Part shown: positions 37,249 to 46,700 of the stretch, one piece after another
Layout: each line of letters begins with the position of its first letter
Numbering within the stretch: position 1 is the stretch's first letter
Origin: Stereum hirsutum FP-91666 SS1
Taxonomy: Eukaryota > Basidiomycota > Agaricomycetes > Russulales > Stereaceae
NCBI RefSeq assembly: GCF_000264905.1
Contig: NW_006763142.1
Coordinates: 1,042,597-1,106,596 of the forward strand
Direction: 5' to 3'
Length of the DNA: 64,000 nucleotides
Made by a program: the position numbers and the translations under genes
Notes under the pieces: model-generated
Database searches by the model: none
Told to the model about the DNA's origin: nothing
Seen by the model: the letters and a program-made list of their open reading frames with translations, nothing else

Positions 37249-40023
37249 CTATTTCGCCCCACCCCACGCAACCTTCTTCGCCGCCACCGGCACCACCGGC
37301 GCCTCCACCCCCTCCGCCGGTCCAGGCGCGCGTCTCGGTCTTATAGGCAACGGACTGTTCTTGAGACCGTCGAGGACGCGTTGGGCGTGCTCTGTGTTGC
37401 GGATGAACCAGCCTGCGAAGCGGCGGCCGACGGTGGATTCGTAGATGTGGACCATGTTCTGTGTGGGTGGGTTGGTAAGTAAGTGTGGAATAAGAATGTG
37501 GAAGAAGGGAGAGGGGGCGGAGAGGAGAAGGTGAAACGTACATCATCAATAACGAAATCCAAATCACTCGTCGAAATCATCTCCCCATCCAAAAGACTCC
37601 TTCCCTCCCCTGCTCCTCCCCCACCCGTCCCCATCTCCCCACCCCCCGCAATCCTACTAACACACCTACTAGCCCCCTTCACCGCCATCATCTGCATCAC
37701 CATCTCCTCCTCATCCGCATCCAAAAAGCCCGCAAGCTTACTCGCGTCCAAGCTCGCATACAATTTCAAGAAGCTCCTGAGCGTGGGAACGGAGGCCTGG
37801 GCGCGCACGTCGGAGAGGAAGAGAGAGAGGTGGCGGTGGACGGGTTCGGTGGGGGAGGAGTCGAGGTAGGAGGAGAGGAGGGAGGAGTCTTCGTAAGGGG
37901 GTGGGTTGGCGGAGATGAATTTGGGGCAGGCGTAGGTGAAGAGTTCTTCGAAGGCGGGGATGCCTTCTTCGCTGTGGTGGGCGGGCGAGCGGGCGAGCGG
38001 GCGGCGTGAACGGACGGCGGGCGGGCGGGTGGGGTGGAATGGGCGGGCGGGCAGATTGTCAGTAGTTGACTTGGATAGATGGTCAGGATGAAAAGAGGAA
38101 GAGAAAAGAACTCACCCCCTCGCCATCTTCGCAAACTGCTCACCATACCTATCCTTCACGATATTCGCGATATTATCGTCCAGCCTGCTCGGCGACAGGG
38201 CGTTACAGATCGCGAAGAGGGCGTACATCCTGTCTGCCGTTTTGTTGATCTAGTACATTCACAACAAGAGGACAGCATCAGCTCGGTGTTCTGTTTAGTC
38301 TTGAGTCGTGTGGGCGCGGTGGCGCAACGACGCGTAACCACGCATAAACTAAGAACGAAACCCCAGAAAGGAAAGAAGGAACGAACGAACGAACGAACGA
38401 ACGAACGAACGAAGGAAAGAAGGAAGAGCGGAAAAGAAAACAAAAAACGCACCTGATCATACTGATAACTCCGCGTATGATACTGCCTCATCCTCAATAT
38501 AAAATTCAATATCGAAACGAAAACGCGGATGGCGTCGGGGTACCGCCGGAGCATGATGTAGCAGAAACCGACGTAGTAGTAGGTGGTTACGTGGCAGGCT
38601 GTGACGCGGGTGAAAGGTGACTGTTGGGAGGAGAGGAGGGTGAGGGTGAGGAGAAGTCAGATGAGGTTTATGAAAAGGATGGGAGGAGGAGGGAGAGGAA
38701 GGAAGAGGAGGTAGGAAGAGGAGAGAGGGAGAGGGGAGGCAATGAATAGAACGAAGGAAGCCAAATACACACCTTTTGGTTCAACTCCACATTCTCCATC
38801 ACTTTCAACGCAAGCGTAAAGTCGCCCAGAAGGACATGAACGCGCAACAAGCCTATAATACTAAAAAAGCCAAGCATGCGATAAAGCGGGCGTACGCCGA
38901 ATTCGCCTACGATCTCGCTATACACGGTTCACCCACCACCATCAGCACCACCACTCAAATTCTCCCTCAAAAAAAAAGGTGAAAAGGACGCACGCCATCT
39001 CCTCCTCCGCCCTCCCCTCCCTCTGTGCATTAATCCACTCATTAATCCTACTCTTCTGAATCAACGAATAAAGCACATTCAGCACTGAATAAGCGCTCCA
39101 CACCTGGCCCGCTTCGGCGAGCATGGCGAGTTCTTCGTCGGACTTGGATTTGATTTTGGCGCGCCAGACGCAGAAGGATTGGAATTGGTAGATGAACTCG
39201 TCGGTGATGTCCCAGAGCCATTGTTCGGGGAGTTCGAGGGTGACGGGGCCGTCGGAGTCTGTTTGTGATATTGAGATGGAGTAGTTAGGGGGGAGGGAGG
39301 GGAGGGAGGGGAGAGAAAGAGGGAAGGGGGGGCAAGGGAGAGGGGGAGAGGAGGGAGGGAAAGACGTACTGAGGAGGTAGTTGAACAGTTCGCAGCTGTT
39401 CTCATACGAGTGGAAGCGGTCGTCGATATTCGGTTGAAGGCGAGAATACACATGTCGATAATAAAGCTCTCGATAAAGAATCAAGAACAACTGGTCTACC
39501 CACCCAAAAAAATCACATCAATCTCCTAGACAAAAATCCATTTTTTTTTTGAAAAGAGACGCGCAAACGCACCGTCATTCACCAACGGCGCAATCACCTC
39601 CGCCTCCGGCCACTCCGTCTTCGCATAATATTTTTCAGTCAATCGATTCCAGCCGCTCTCGTACGCGACGGTGATCTCGGCGAGGTTGTTGTCGAGCACG
39701 GCTTGGTGGAAGTGGACGATGAAGCGTTTGACGACGTCGGGGATCTGGGCGAAGGCGGCTTGTTGGGCCATTTGTTGTTGGACGGCGACGAGGGTGGCTT
39801 CGTTGATGCGCGATTGGGCTAGATGTACATCGAAAAAATTAAGGCGTTAGTTGAGGGTAGGGGATGGATGGGTGGGTGAGGATGGGTGGGAAGAGGGGAA
39901 GGACAGACCATCGTCGTAGAGCCCGCTCTGGGCGTAGTTTCCGATGGCGAGATTGACGTCGACATCGTGCATCTCTTCGTCGATCTCCTCTGCGGCCCAA
40001 AGAGCCATCCGTTGCTGTGCCAT
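37249..40023 (-). CDS. eIF3l: Translation initiation factor eIF3 subunit L
   Basis: This is subunit L of eIF3, a PCI-type subunit present in most eukaryotes but missing from budding yeast. It helps recruit the 40S ribosome. The start at 40023 gives [20 protein letters not shown]. Conserved blocks follow: [32 protein letters not shown] [105 protein letters not shown], and [15 protein letters not shown]. The PCI end contains [20 protein letters not shown]. It ends in an Ala/Pro-rich tail at 37249. About nine introns, several with strongly pyrimidine-rich sense strands. The start codon lies 193 bp from the divergent nucleotidyltransferase gene. Confidence 0.94.
38380..38413. repeat. (AACG)n tetranucleotide repeat
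   Basis: Eight or so AACG units lie inside an intron of the eIF3 subunit L gene. It is a simple repeat, likely length-variable. Confidence 0.9.
39287..39362. repeat. G-rich tract with quadruplex potential, in an intron
   Basis: The plus strand has at least six runs of three or more G within about 75 bp, inside an eIF3 subunit L intron. The transcribed RNA (minus sense) is correspondingly C/T-rich. Confidence 0.7.
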
Positions 40024-40216
40024 GTTGATGTTGAGCGGGTTGGGGGTGTCGATGGCGGTCGACGGTGAACGGTCAGGAAAAGTTTCGGCTTGTGGCGTAA
40101 GGAATGCAATTCGTAGTCGGGTGGCGTAGTGTGCATGTTTTGGGCCACAAAGTCTAACTTACGAGTTGTCCTGAACCTGCAGCGTTATTTCTGCGTTCCT
40201 CATCCCACTCTTGTCG
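40024..40216. promoter_or_regulatory. Bidirectional promoter, eIF3 subunit L / TUT-like gene
   Basis: Only 193 bp lie between the two divergent start codons, so both genes must be driven from here. No TATA box is obvious, as is common for housekeeping genes. Confidence 0.5.
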
Positions 40217-43200
40217 ATGCGCCTCGTCCGAGCGCTGTCCACGACAATCAGACGCGTGTATGTTCATTCACCGTTGACCGTGACGGGCAGCAGACTGCAG
40301 AGGGTGTTCAACAAGTACTACACCATGGACCACCAGCCCTCTAAGTTCCATCCCAGCCTGAACAGGGACGCCGCCTTCATCCTCAAGGTGAATTGAAACC
40401 AAAACCGCTCGTCATATATCCCCTGATCTCTTCTCAGTCTTTTGCAGTCGATGAGACCACGAAGCAATCCCGTGAAGCACTCTTGACCCGCCTGAACAAG
40501 ACCATCGGTGCTGAATACGACGGTCGATTCAGCGTGGATGACTACAGCTTCCACAAATACGGACAGGACATCTACGGGCCTCCTCTCGAGCTGTATATCG
40601 TCGTGCGTCCGACCCTCTCCACATAATGATATAATATAACCAGAGCTGACGTCTCGGACAGGACACGAAGTACGAGCATGGCCTGACGCCAGACGTAGAC
40701 CTGGACGACCTCCCGCTCATGTACGACCCGAGGTCAGTCCGTCTCGTCTCGTCCCGTCCATCCACCCACCCGCCCGCCCATTCTTAATGCCGTTATTGTT
40801 ACTGTTATGATTTAGCTGGGTAGCCTCCCTCCTCCTACGCGCAGGCTTCAACGGCACCTTCCCAATGCCTAACTTCCCACATCGCGCCTCGCAGCTCTCC
40901 GCCACAGAAACAATCACACAACCCCTCGTCCTCCCCGATCCCGGCATTCCCTGGCCCTCATACCCTCCCATCCCATTCAAACCTCCGCACCCACCCTCCC
41001 AAAAGTCTAAATCCAAGTCCAAATCCTCCTCTCCCTCTTCCCCCTCGTCGAACGCAAACACGCTACAATACAAATACCCACTAACTCTGCATGCCTCCCA
41101 CCCCTCCCCCTTCCACCTCACCCTCCCCGGCGCACCCCTCGCCTCCCTCCTCAATCTCCTCCAGGGATATTACTCGCGCGACGTGAAGAGGGGCCGAGAG
41201 TTTTTGGGTTTGCTGCAGATTTGGGTGAGGTCGTGGGGTGTAAGGGATGTCGAGCCGAGTGTGCTTGCGGTGTTGGTTTGCAAGTTCGTTCAGGTTTGTC
41301 GTTTTTTGTCTGGGTCTGCTCTGCGCTATGTGTATGTTCGCGTGCTTAGAAGGTTGATTAGGACCGGCTCGTCCCAGCGGCCGAACAAGTAGCCTCGAAA
41401 CGCAAACCCATACGCTCCGGCCCTCTTCCTCTCGCTCCCCCTCCCCCTCCCCCTTTCCCTACACCGTCCACCTCCCCGTCAAGCACATCCACATTCTGGC
41501 TACCCGCCTACATACAAACTCCCCCAGAAAACAAATGGACACTAACCTCCCAACCCCTCGATATCTCCCTACCCGCGCCATCACCTCCGGCCGACTTTCG
41601 ATTCCCGGGTCATGCGAGGAGTTTGGGTGCGTTTTTTGGGTGAGTTTTCGCACCCTGCAAAAATCCCTCTGCTCTGCTTTTTCTGTCGCTGTTGGTTTTC
41701 TTCGTTGGGGGAAGCACCGTTCGACCGTTTTGTGCTCATCTTTGTCTTTATGCTTTTGCATGTATATAGATGGTTCTGCGACCTCAAGCTGCACGTGAAT
41801 TCGAAAGGACCGTCTGTCGTCCTTAACGTTGAGGTTCGACCGTCGAGGGTTTTCGGGTCGGGCGCCACCACCGAGACGACTGCGACTGGGAAGGCTGCCG
41901 GGACCGCAACTACGACCACTGGAACTGAGACGACTGCCACGACCGAGACGGCTGCCACTACCAACATCGAGCCCTCGACTGCCACAGAGAGAATTGCCAC
42001 GACTTCCACGACTTCCACGACCGCCACCCCGAAGAAGACAACCACGCCGGGTACTGCCAATGCCAACATCACCGATGCCAACGCGATGTTCGTCCTGCCC
42101 GACCCTTTCGTGCCGTCCCATGTACGTTTTCTTTTTTCTCGTCCTCGTCCTCGTCTTGTCTCCTCGTACTCGAATGCTCCTCCCTTTTCTTGATCTTGAT
42201 GTGTAGATGATTAATCACGCTAACTCACATTCCTTTCCCTCTCAAAAACTCCCCCAATCAATAAACACAGAACCTCGCCTCACACATCTCCCGCGCCTCC
42301 CTCACCCGCCTCTTCGCAGTCTCTACCATCGCGCTGGCTAAGCTGCAGGCTGGGGCGCCGCTCGGGGCGGTGTTTGGGCCGTTTGAGGGACTTGGTGGTG
42401 TTTCTGGGCTGGGCTTGAGTGCAAGGGAGGGGGGAAGGAAGGGTCAGGGGGAGAGGGAGGGAAAGCGTGCGGAGGGGGAGTTTGGGGTGAGGATAAGGGG
42501 GAGCGAGAGGGAGCGGTTTCGTGCGAGGGAGAGGGAGAGGGAACGTGCGGCGAATGGGGCCCTTGAGGGTGCTTCAAACGCGATGGATGCTGTGGATGTG
42601 GAGGCGGAGAAGGAGAAGGATGGAGTTATAGCTTCATCTGCAGGCGTGTATACGGATGCGGATGCGGATGCGGATGCGGATGGGGCGAGACGGGTTGGTG
42701 AGACGGGGACGGTGGCGGATGTTGGGAGGGCGGGTGGTATGAGTAGGGCTCAGAGTAGGAGTCGGAGTAGAAGTGGGAGTCGGGTTGCGTCGCCTATACC
42801 TGTGGGGTCTGCTTCACCTTTGCCTGCGAGGTCCGCATCGCGTATGCCTGTGGAATCGATGGTGGTGGCGGCGGCGGGTGGAGGCTCTATGCTCAGGGGT
42901 TTCCACACGTCTGCGAGGTTGGGAGCGAGGCTTGAGGAGGGGATGGATGTTTTTGTTGTAAGCTTTTCAGTCAATTCATTCCGTCACGTTCCATTTCGAT
43001 CCGTTTCTTTTTGGCTGATACACTCCATTTCGTTTCCTTCAAACTCGCACTCGCACCCGCACCTGTACCCCCCACCCGCACTCGCATCCGCACTCGCCCC
43101 CAAAATAGATAACCCCCGTCGCGCCCTCCATCCTCGAACAGCGCGCAAAAACGATCGGCAAAGTGACCTACGTCGTCAAGTCCACCTACGGCGCACAGTA

Positions 43201-46200
43201 TCGCGTGCAATGTTTCGGGAGCACGCAGTATGGGACGGATTCGGCGGGGAGTGATTTGGATTTGGTCGTCATCGTGCGTTTTTTTGACGCTTTTTCCTGT
43301 TGACTGTTCAGCAGGTTAGGTGATGCTGACTGCTGACGGTGTTGTGGGGGCTTTTTGGATGTGCATTAGGACCCGGAGAGGCCGGCTGGGTTTTCGCCGG
43401 ATGTGAACCTCAATTCTTTACCACGTAACTACTCTCTCTCTTCATTCTCGGCACCATCAGATCTGAGCTGACCAAAAATAATTCTCTCTTTCAAAAAAGC
43501 GGTCTATAATATCAGGTCTGTCGTTGGAGATTCGTTGTATGGAGGCCTACGTTTGACGATGCGTTGCTCGACAGAAAATTGGGACGTGCGCTTCAGCGGG
43601 CTGGGTTTGTGAGTGTTGAGTGTATACCTGGCGCTACCGTACCCATAGGCATGTCTGTTGTGTCCTCCACTCCATCCATCGTTCTCGCACCTCCATGTCC
43701 CCCTCCCCCCTCCCGGCACTTTCTCTCACGCTCATGCTCACGCCTCTCCCGCGCCCCACAGTTAAATTCAAAGACCCACGCACGAACATCCACTGCGACA
43801 TCAACATCAACGACCGTCTCGGCGTGAAAAACACCGAGCTCATCGCGCGCTACATCGAGCTCCTGCCCGTGCTCCGGCCGCTCCTGAGCGCTATCAAGAA
43901 ATGGGCGGGGGTGCATGGGTTGAATAATCCGAGCGGGAGGCAGGGGGCGGTGTCGTTTAGTAGTTATGCGTTGACGGTGATGAGTATTGCGTTCTTTCAG
44001 GTGGGGTTTTTTTTTTGCTTCTTGCCATGTCATTGCATGATGTGTGTTTTCGAGGTCAAGCGACTTATTGCTAGCCAACAGATGAAGGGCTTGCTTCCGA
44101 ATCTGCAGGACGAGGAAGGGATGAGCAGGCGGGAACGTGTGTTCTGGTTGAGGACGAAAAAGCACGGGATGAGGGTCAAGTGCGATGTGCGGTGGAGGAA
44201 GGACGTGCTCACTTGGGAACCACCGCGGGAGGTGGAGTTGGCGGAGGCGCTGGCGGAGTGGTTTTAGTGAGTCCTTTGCCTTTGTCTTTGTTTCTGAGCC
44301 ATTATCCGTTGCTGAATACCGTTTGTATGCGATTTTCTTTTCTTCCTTTTTCAATATGTACAGTTATTGGGGCCACGAACACCGATATGGGGATGATCTG
44401 GTGAGTATTCGGCATGGAGGGTTGATCGCAAGGCAGCATCCGTATAAGGGCAAAGCCATTACGGGTGCGCCTGTGCCGTTTAGTGGAGAGGTGAAGGCTG
44501 AAGGTGAGACTATGTTGTTGACGCGACTGGACCGGCTGTTGACAGTCTATTGTTAGGGCACGAACCCAAGCAATCGGTCACGTCGCTCTCTACGGCAGAT
44601 GGGAAGGTGGAAAATACCACGGTGGAGGCGGATGGGGAAGGAGGACAAGTAGAGGTGCCACTTGTCGAGATTCTGCCAGATCTTGAGGTCAAACTTGTGG
44701 ACGATCTTCAGGAGGCGGAATCGCCACAGATAGCCCACGAAGATGCCGCCGATATGGCCAGCAATGCCATACCTACCGAAACGACACCTGCCCACGACTC
44801 CGATACACCCACGCAGGACAACGTTCACCCCATAGCAGCGACTCTTTTGTCCGAGCTGAAAAAATCGCAGGAGGTCGAGAAGGATTCTACCACGGAGGAG
44901 GTCAAGAAGGATTCCACCACGGAGGAAGTCCAGCTCCTGGCCGGCGCTTCCAACGTCGTGGAACAGGACGTCGCTCTCACCGTCACCGCCGACGATGATA
45001 TCGCCCAGTCGGAAGCGGGGGAATCGATCTTATCTAGAGACGACGAACAACAGCCGAATTGGTCCGCCGCGCCTTTATGTGTGCGGGATCCGTTCATCGC
45101 GCAGAAGGTTCGTTTCTTATTCCCCTCGCTCTCCTCCTTACCTCTCCTCTCCCCTTCTCCCTCGTTCCGTTCCGAAACTTACAATACCTCGCGGATGTTC
45201 CATCTACAGAATGTCACCAGCGCGATCAGGATCTCCACGATTGAGCGCTTCAGAGCGGATTGTCAAAGGGTGTATATGCTGTTGAGTTTGGGGGGTACGT
45301 GGAGCGACGTCATGCCGACGGAAAGCTCGGTGGTCGAATCGGACGAAGAGGACGCGAGTCTGTGGGACGAGATTTTGGGGGCGAGAGGGAAGAAGGGTGC
45401 TGGGCGGGGGATGGGGATGAGAGGAGGGGGACGTGGGAAGAAGGGAAGAGGCGGGGGAGTGAGGGATAATGGTGATCGACCGGCGAGGAAAGAGACGGGT
45501 CAGGGTCAGAGTCATCTTCCGGTGAAGGAGGGAGAGGCTGGGCCGAGCACGTCGACGGTACAAGTCGCAAAGAAACCGGTCGAGCGACCTGCCGTGGGGC
45601 CGTCTAACGATCCGACTGCTCCTTCTCCGCCGAAATCGTCTCAGGGTCAGAGCGGCCTTCCAACAAAGGAAGGAGAACCTGTGCCGAGCACGTCGACAGT
45701 ACCATTCGCAAAGCAACCGGTCGAGCAACCTACTGCGGGACCGTCTACCGATCCCTCCACTCGTTCTCCGCCAAAATCGTCGGAACTGTCGACCGCCACG
45801 GATATCAAGGGGCAGACGAAGAAGGGAAAGGAACGCGAAGTAGTACGTTCCGAAGCGACTGCACTTTTGGAGAAGTCGTTGGCTGGTATACGTGCTCAGA
45901 GGGACGGGCAGCCGTCTTCGTCCGCAGGCCCATCTCGCAAGCCCCAATTTCCGAAACGCGCTGATAAGGCCAAGGCCAAGACAGTCGACGTTCAGCAGGC
46001 TACAAAGCAGGACACCGCCACGCCACGACCGTCCGGTCAGGATCTCCCTTCAGTGCAAGATGTGCATCTTCCAGACTCAACAGCTCGGGACGCCCCTTCT
46101 ACCAATCAACTGCTCCAGCCATCTTCGTCAGCAGGCCCATCTCGCATGCCCAAATTTCCGACACACGCTGATAAGGCGAAAGCGAAGGCTGTCGACGTTC

Positions 46201-46700
46201 AGCAGGATACACCTGCACCACGGCCGTCCGGTCAGGATCTCCCTTCAACAGTGCAAGATGTACCTCTTCCAGACCCATCATCTCGGGACGCCTCCTCTAC
46301 CAATCCCAATCAACTGCCCCCAAAAGCGCCACGATGGACGCGTGCAGAGCGGAAGGCAAGACGGGAAGCAGAGAAGGCCACAGTCATAGTTGCTTCCGAA
46401 GTGGCGTCGACGAGTCAGGAACATTCCACCGCGCAGGAGACACTACATCCCGACCCTTCTACTGACCAGCCGTCGAAGAAAAAACAACTGCCGGGTGGGG
46501 AGAAGAAGGCCAAGCGGGAGGAGAAAAAGACTGACGTCGTCCTCGCTTCCGAAGTGGGTGGGACAGATGAGCAAGGGTCTCGTTCGAGCTCTGTGCCCCC
46601 TCGGAAGAAAAATAAAAAGAAGAAGAAAGCTGCGACGGATGGAGTGTTAGTTGGTGAAAGGCCGGAAATTTCGCAGGCGCCGAATGCTCAGGCGTCGTAG
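40217..46700 (+). CDS. Cid1/TUT-like nucleotidyltransferase with duplicated module
   Basis: This is a very large non-canonical poly(A)/poly(U) polymerase family protein. The active-looking module is C-terminal: FGSTQYGTDSAGSDLDLVVI (GS...DLD, two catalytic Asp), IHCDININDRLGVKNTEL (third Asp), VLRPLLSAIKKWA, and the PAP-associated part FYYWGHEHRYGDDLVSIRHG, then a closing DPFIAQKNVTSAIR. An N-terminal module repeats the same order in degenerate form: KYGQDIYGPPLELYIV, LLRAGF, FHLTLPG, REFLGLLQIWVRSWG, LGAFFGWFCDLKLHV and LPDPFVPSHNLASHISR. Its catalytic carboxylates are replaced. Between them are Thr-rich and Arg/Ser-rich linkers. A low-complexity, Lys-rich tail of about 500 residues contains two tandem duplications. 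The start at 40217 gives an Arg-rich presequence-like MRLVRALSTTIRRVYVH; a later Met is possible. About 11 introns. That it is one gene is inferred from continuous frames and the repeated domain order. Confidence 0.82.
42653..42682 (+). repeat. (GCGGAT)n coding microsatellite
   Basis: GATGCG units encode an Asp-Ala run (DADADADAD) in the linker between the two modules of the TUT-like protein. Confidence 0.85.
45501..45782 (+). repeat. Tandem duplication, 141-bp unit, in the TUT-like tail
   Basis: Two in-frame copies, 45501-45641 and 45642-45782, each encode 47 residues with shared anchors GQS-LP-KEGE, PSTSTV, AK-PVE-P and SPPKSS. Copies have diverged by many substitutions but kept length and frame. 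Confidence 0.85.
45909..46319 (+). repeat. Tandem duplication, about 205-bp unit, in the TUT-like tail
   Basis: Two in-frame copies, 45909-46115 and 46116-46319, encode 68-69 residues each, sharing QPSSSAGPSR, ADKAKAK-VDVQQ, PRPSGQDLPS and SSRDA/TARDA-STN. A small in-frame length difference separates them. Confidence 0.85.

Follow-up and report, generated by a model that had tools for sequence, protein, structure and literature searches.

Does a mushroom terminal nucleotidyltransferase (TENT) that carries a dead copy of its own catalytic module ahead of the live one share this layout with animal TUT4 and TUT7 by deep conservation, or was the layout invented independently? The question is raised by a gene of the basidiomycete Stereum hirsutum FP-91666 SS1, located at 40217..46700 on the + strand of a 64,000-nucleotide stretch of contig NW_006763142.1 (positions 1,042,597 to 1,106,596 of the forward strand; hereafter the window, to which gene coordinates refer) and modeled here with 16 exons encoding 1705 amino acids (aa). 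The explanation that we consider rather probable, from sequence, tree tests and predicted models, is that the product is a TENT made of two fused copies of one nucleotidyltransferase (NTase)/PAP-associated module, an active module 2 and its dead partner module 1, and that it is probably mitochondrial.

Two copies of one module

Module 1 (aa 58-545; 40438..42390, +) and module 2 (aa 735-1245; 43109..45317, +) resemble each other beyond chance. With low-complexity filtering and composition correction both switched off, BLASTP aligns the two halves at 28% over 81 aa (E 9e-10); the core-to-core score is 112, against a mean of 24.8 and a maximum of 43 in 500 shuffles; and profile-profile comparison with relatives added, using one template, gives E 1.7e-32 over 315 columns. 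Even at E 1 Pfam returns no match for residues 1-734, so module 1 is real but cryptic. In module 2, by comparison, Pfam scores exceed the curated cut-offs (PF22600, 90 vs 27 bits; PF03828, 25 vs 22.6 bits), the best match being the MTPAP-like central domain, and the fold of a relative, P0002, has been predicted. A Mycena relative of module 1, P0019, is predicted to adopt the NTase/PAP fold, the opposite of what would have counted against the initial annotation, which described the N-terminal half as a complete copy, made by duplication, of the module that follows it. At the level of sequence comparison the N-terminal module is confirmed as such a copy, complete but degenerate.

Loss of catalytic residues in module 1

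In Stereum, module 2 carries GS...SDLD and HCDIN (G771-S772 to D783-x-D785 at 43217..43261, and the third catalytic Asp, D850, at 43797..43799), whereas at the equivalent sites module 1 has GPPLE and FHLTL: P-L-E stands in place of the catalytic D-L-D (P106, E108; 40582..40590), and FHLTL (41111..41125) in place of HCDIN. The initial annotation called module 1 dead from this contrast, and the residue counts bear it out. It had also read the three carboxylates as changed to Pro, Glu and Thr; the set is indeed incomplete, but the third Asp aligns with the His of FHLTL rather than its Thr (a non-carboxylate either way), and the Stereum triad sites read Pro, Glu and His, the alignment of the third being uncertain by 1-2 residues. 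Residues were counted over 19 two-module proteins, P0005 being left out because it is the third row from Sanghuangporus (92% to P0006) and carries a fused kinase. All three catalytic Asp residues are present in module 2 of 19/19 and Gly-Ser in 18/19, the exception being P0017, which looks damaged at that site; module 1 has the full catalytic set in 0/19. At its first carboxylate site 14 of the 19 have Pro and only Hohenbuehelia has Asp; at the second, 17 have Glu and 2 have Asp; and at the third none has an acidic residue. By its signature and PAP-associated domain, module 2 is an intact Cid1-type terminal nucleotidyltransferase module.

According to excerpts of PMC7498324, the base-recognition residue of CutA, Arg557, is the counterpart of Cid1 His336; by count along the chain it sits in EPFxxxR-N. 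The His336 column contains Lys in 19/19 active modules (Lys1209 in Stereum, 45105..45107) and His in 15/19 dead modules (His505, 42119..42121), and in all 15 TUT4 proteins inspected it contains Arg in the dead module and His in the active one. Because the UTP-selecting His of Cid1 and TUT4/7 is replaced by Lys throughout, module 2 may add U, A or C, and the earlier label "TUT-like" is not supported as an activity. A role for module 1 as a nucleotide sensor through its retained His was considered and found weak. Lys and Tyr hold the triphosphate in Cid1-type enzymes, and these residues also look replaced.

Origin of the duplication

In an alignment of 38 modules, five of the six module-1 introns match a module-2 intron by codon and phase (module 1/module 2: after 112/789, in 136/813, after 295/917, in 388/979 and after 505/1209), and the sixth (after 57/734) fits if the hhalign match is extended ungapped by a few residues; module 2 has three additional introns with no partner in module 1. 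The shared introns are absent at the readable sites of three Stereum paralogues. A single open frame crosses four of the six intron sites in the paralogue on C3 (Trf4-like by eye), and no intron interrupts the FFQ site in the two on C13 and C21; in all three, the outermost two sites were unreadable.

In a 47-row tree module 1 forms a single group (support 100/100), a branch with support 97/83 sets modules 1 and 2 apart from the other rows, and one with 99/97 does so for TUT4 N and TUT4 C. This is the tree check that the initial annotation had proposed, and module 1 falls beside module 2 and not with the animal inactive module, the outcome pointing to fungal duplication. The first tree held 13 of the 19 module-1 rows, and a second tree dropped eight of the first's rows, seven of them module 1; MTPAP is represented by one long-branched Cimex row. 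An approximately unbiased (AU) test rejects a clade of module 1 with TUT4 N, at p 0.024 with the first tree and p 0.004 after removal of the eight rows, thereby separating module 1 from the TUT4 dead module. Profile comparison gives E 4e-6 for module 1 against TUT4 N and E 2.7e-32 for TUT4 N against TUT4 C. These scores and the AU tests together reject module 1 as an ortholog of the dead module of TUT4/7. Of the two origins that the initial annotation had offered, independent invention is favored over deep conservation: the evidence favors a fungal dead/active pair that arose independently of TUT4/7, the likeness being best read as convergent architecture.

Spread and conservation in fungi

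The two-module layout is found in 20 proteins including the Stereum model: one each in Stereum, Gloeopeniophorella, Artomyces, Laetiporus, Somion, Hohenbuehelia and Sphaerobolus, three in Sanghuangporus, eight in Mycena and two metagenomic. We take the named holders to cover Russulales, Polyporales, Hymenochaetales, Agaricales and Phallomycetidae. As the protein searches scored 7984, 7991 and 2375 candidates, this spread is a minimum. Nineteen database proteins hold both modules in one chain, although four of them lack the start of module 1 (P0012, P0014, P0029, P0032), and the separation into two units that would have contradicted the initial annotation did not appear. Its suggestion of a duplication "within this lineage" is too narrow, the layout spanning Agaricomycetes and perhaps being older.

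Conservation of module 1 and of the module-2 core was compared in eight pairs of proteins. In the three closest they are 86 vs 88%, 90 vs 95% and 79 vs 82%, and in the five more distant 58 vs 74, 58 vs 66, 49 vs 67, 32 vs 54 and 29 vs 46%. In seven of the eight, module 1 is better conserved than the linker. Because conservation is near-equal in close pairs and change is faster in distant ones, we read module 1 as a domain that is retained but relaxed, not as a decaying relic.

Some database models show less than the full layout. Fragments of module 1 precede module 2 in P0027 (Lyophyllum), P0031 (Sphagnurus) and P0030 (Favolaschia), those of Lyophyllum and Sphagnurus being recognized by eye; these are either eroding modules or wrong models. 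The public protein P0005 (Sanghuangporus baumii) is joined to a neighboring Akt-type kinase, probably by annotation fusion.

Presequence-like features and module packing

The Stereum protein begins MRLVRALSTTIRRVYV, and its presequence-like N terminus (aa 1-37; 40217..40327, +) has no acidic residue before position 38 and contains RALST at aa 5-9, which was compared with the ICP55 site, given in excerpts of the review PMC8847149 as RX(F/Y/I/L), cut, (S/A)(S/T). The pattern R-x-[FL]-[SC]-[STG] occurs within the first 15 residues of 12 of 22 module-1 proteins. A further motif, [RK]-x-[FY]-[HSA]-[STI]-[STNA], lies 35-110 residues ahead of the module-2 catalytic Asp in 14 of the 19 proteins and seven of nine named genera, where shuffles predict 0.17, the pattern having been set after the rows were seen. 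In Stereum this is RGFHTSA (42895..42915), 69 residues ahead of D783 within the inter-module linker (the remainder of exon 7 plus intron 7; 42391..43108). The motif may still serve for cleavage, or it may be left over from a presequence that the second copy once had; in yeast, Arg5,6 is a known case of a chain cut internally by the processing peptidase (excerpts of PMC12585908). Judged by these sequence features, which the initial annotation overlooked, the two-module protein is probably imported into mitochondria.

A genome-wide tally of RxFHTSA proved too sparse to serve as proof of targeting, with 3 matches in 46 Mb (two with CGN codons and one, the two-module gene, with AGR) and 0 for both in a reversed control. 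A looser pattern matches the Stereum genome 51 times, against 36 in the control; 15 of 33 motif loci passed a protein-level filter, most of them not visibly at a gene start, and the sole motif locus put to Pfam, picked by eye, is COA8. A bacterial-type promoter scan of the linker is uninformative for a fungus. Among the open-access literature matches listed there was no printed account of such fungal proteins or of fungal mitochondrial tailing. Elsewhere in Stereum, an open frame (L019; G000:C19, ~362644-363746) extends more than 500 codons past the motif, has RGFHTSA well inside it and lies with a looser motif match ~1.1 kb from that RGFHTSA; it is possibly a further mitochondrial precursor with internal motifs.

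The predicted model of P0002 (937 aa) has a predicted template modeling score (pTM) of 0.72. By our own arithmetic, ~0.43-0.47 would be expected without a fixed orientation of the modules and 0.68-0.72 for an error of 3-5 Å, and the model thus gives a hint of an intramolecular pseudo-dimer of modules 1 and 2. A two-module arrangement like that of TUT7 is unsupported, rigid-body superposition on 8opt covering 572 aa with a root-mean-square deviation of 24 Å.

Taken together, a single-module Cid1/TENT-type gene would have been duplicated along with its introns, the copies remaining fused. Module 2 would perform the chemistry, placing untemplated nucleotides onto RNA 3' ends, and module 1, having lost its metal-binding carboxylates and retained its fold, would most likely be a built-in partner that packs on module 2 and influences how RNA is bound or how processive the enzyme is. 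A second protomer plays a comparable part in dimeric relatives, as does the Lin28-interacting module in TUT4/7.

Gene model, public annotation and neighborhood

The placement of the gene in the initial annotation is upheld by a model that opens with the ATG at 40217 and stays in frame up to a stop codon ending at 46700. Its exons, read by frame and splice site, are 40217-40387, 40438-40602, 40662-40732, 40816-41293, 41362-41639, 41770-42121, 42271-42957, 43109-43273, 43370-43424, 43500-43515, 43575-43648, 43762-44000, 44082-44266, 44364-44503, 44557-45107 and 45210-46700, and of its 15 introns 14 are GT-AG and one, intron 11 (43649..43761), is GC-AG. The public protein STEHIDRAFT_170415 (P0001) is identical to the model from residue 494 to the end. 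Its start codon is an ATG within exon 6, directly ahead of the last strand of module 1, so that nearly all of module 1 is missing from it. Annotation can therefore conceal pseudoenzyme domains: module 1 is unseen by Pfam and mostly cut from the public Stereum model.

Upstream, head to head on the opposite strand, lies a Paf67-domain gene (by Pfam; presumably eIF3 subunit L) whose probable ATG, read by eye from the open frame, is 194 bp from 40217. This neighbor is in keeping with the start at 40217 and places a promoter region ahead of module 1; the interval (40021-40217) is likely a promoter shared by the two genes. At the other end, the C-terminal tail (45318..46700) contains internal repeats, and the DNA encoding it has, in 45500-46305, duplicated segments ~200 nt apart: one pair measures 141 nt (80%), and shorter ones measure 96, 57 and 47 nt (85-88%).

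Alternative explanations

Several observations weigh against the explanation preferred here, beginning with the fact that location, activity and transcript are all predicted. The module-1 rows sit on long branches; the second tree comes with a long-branch warning and gives module 2 alone 49/91. The smut enzymes of Tilletia and Tilletiaria as sister of module 1 are rejected in neither tree (p 0.30 and 0.097), and hence the duplication may predate Agaricomycetes. Database models from Pleurotus, Lyophyllum, Hypholoma, Paxillus and Panus lack a full module 1, which suggests that the module is dispensable in places, or misannotation; in distant pairs it is far less conserved than module 2 (32 vs 54%, 29 vs 46%), and in one pair of eight it does no better than the linker (linker 91%, module 1 90%). 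The N-terminal motif is absent in 10 of 22 proteins, in four because the model starts within module 1, and the criteria used for presequences were composition and motif instead of a trained predictor. The hint of packing comes from a single pTM value, with an alignment of 24 sequences and no predicted aligned error behind it.

Among the rivals, it is possible, if unlikely, that the protein is a mitochondrial polyprotein whose R-x-[FY]-H-[ST]-like motif before module 2 is where the processing peptidase separates a pseudoenzyme subunit from an active one, the two then re-associating. The recurrence of the motif at one place (14/19 proteins, 7/9 named genera, 0.17 expected), the presequence-like N termini, a like motif at the start of the one COA8-like open frame picked by eye, and the precedent of one chain cut in two, yeast Arg5,6 (excerpts of PMC12585908 and PMC8847149), would suit such processing, but the motif is absent in 5/19, its pattern was picked after being seen, it may be a mere relic of the second copy's presequence, and some linkers are very short or acidic. 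A more specific version seems unlikely: a mushroom mitochondrial tailing machine of a kind new to the literature, with a presequence before each copy, cut within the organelle into an obligate pseudo-heterodimer, evolved separately from MTPAP of animals and having a base pocket of the lysine type. A nuclear or cytoplasmic role, in RNA surveillance or in the tailing of small RNAs or mRNAs, the presequence-like stretches being accidental, is improbable given the motif starts in 12/22 and internal motifs in 14/19, even though several relatives lack a presequence-like start and Cryptococcus Rde4, a predicted terminal nucleotidyltransferase, acts in RNA interference (excerpts of PMC6643885). That two adjacent genes were wrongly joined, with the modules on separate transcripts, we regard as very improbable: the public Stereum model does begin within the end of module 1, three Mycena models end after module 1, and those of Paxillus and Panus contain module 2 only, but the frame runs unbroken from exon 6, which holds the public start codon, to exon 8, both modules are joined in 19 database proteins, and the promoter region lies ahead of module 1. 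Least credible, to the point of being nearly dismissed, is that module 1 is an ancient module common with the dead N-terminal module of TUT4/TUT7, since its profile matches module 2 (1.7e-32) far above TUT4 N (4e-6), the joint clade is rejected (p 0.024 and 0.004), introns are common to modules 1 and 2, and the Stereum protein has no zinc finger or PF19088 match.

Comparison with known systems

The layout of a dead TENT module with an active one is already known, and the fungal case is an independent variant of it; in taxonomic spread, in gene structure and in probable location the finding goes beyond the first description. Its interest is that a TENT fused to its own dead copy in a separate lineage asks what the pseudoenzyme is for where Lin28 and pre-let-7 are no answer. 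Like the fungal protein, TUT4 and TUT7 have a dead NTase/PAP module ahead of the active one, and according to excerpts of PMC6488673 their NTD1 is without catalytic carboxylates and thought to be duplicated from NTD2. However, theirs is a separate duplication, and the residues lost differ, TUT4 NTD1 having Asp/Asn/Arg (same excerpts) where the fungal modules have Pro (14/19), Glu (17/19) and a third residue that is never acidic. The C2H2 zinc finger and CCHC knuckles of TUT4/TUT7 have no Pfam match in the Stereum protein at E up to 1, and the His336 column is Arg (dead) and His (active) in TUT4, unlike the His (15/19) and Lys (19/19) of the fungal pair.

CutA, Cid1 and URT1 are single modules, and in OAS2 and OAS3, of a different family and with a different product, tandem NTase-fold units include an inactive N-terminal one. 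Likeness to MTPAP lies in its being a mitochondrial NTase/PAP enzyme, the fungal location being predicted and module 2 having an MTPAP-like best Pfam match; we know of no dead module fused to MTPAP. The base residue sets module 2 apart from the single-module enzymes, being Lys there, Arg in CutA and His in Cid1 (excerpts of PMC7498324). In excerpts of PMC5509036, where fungi are not treated, MTPAP is reported to have arisen from TUTase6 in the ancestor of bilaterians and to be missing from other holozoans, non-bilaterian animals included. If the protein is mitochondrial, it asks whether mushroom mitochondrial RNAs are tailed, and if MTPAP is restricted as reported, such a mushroom enzyme would be a separate recruitment.
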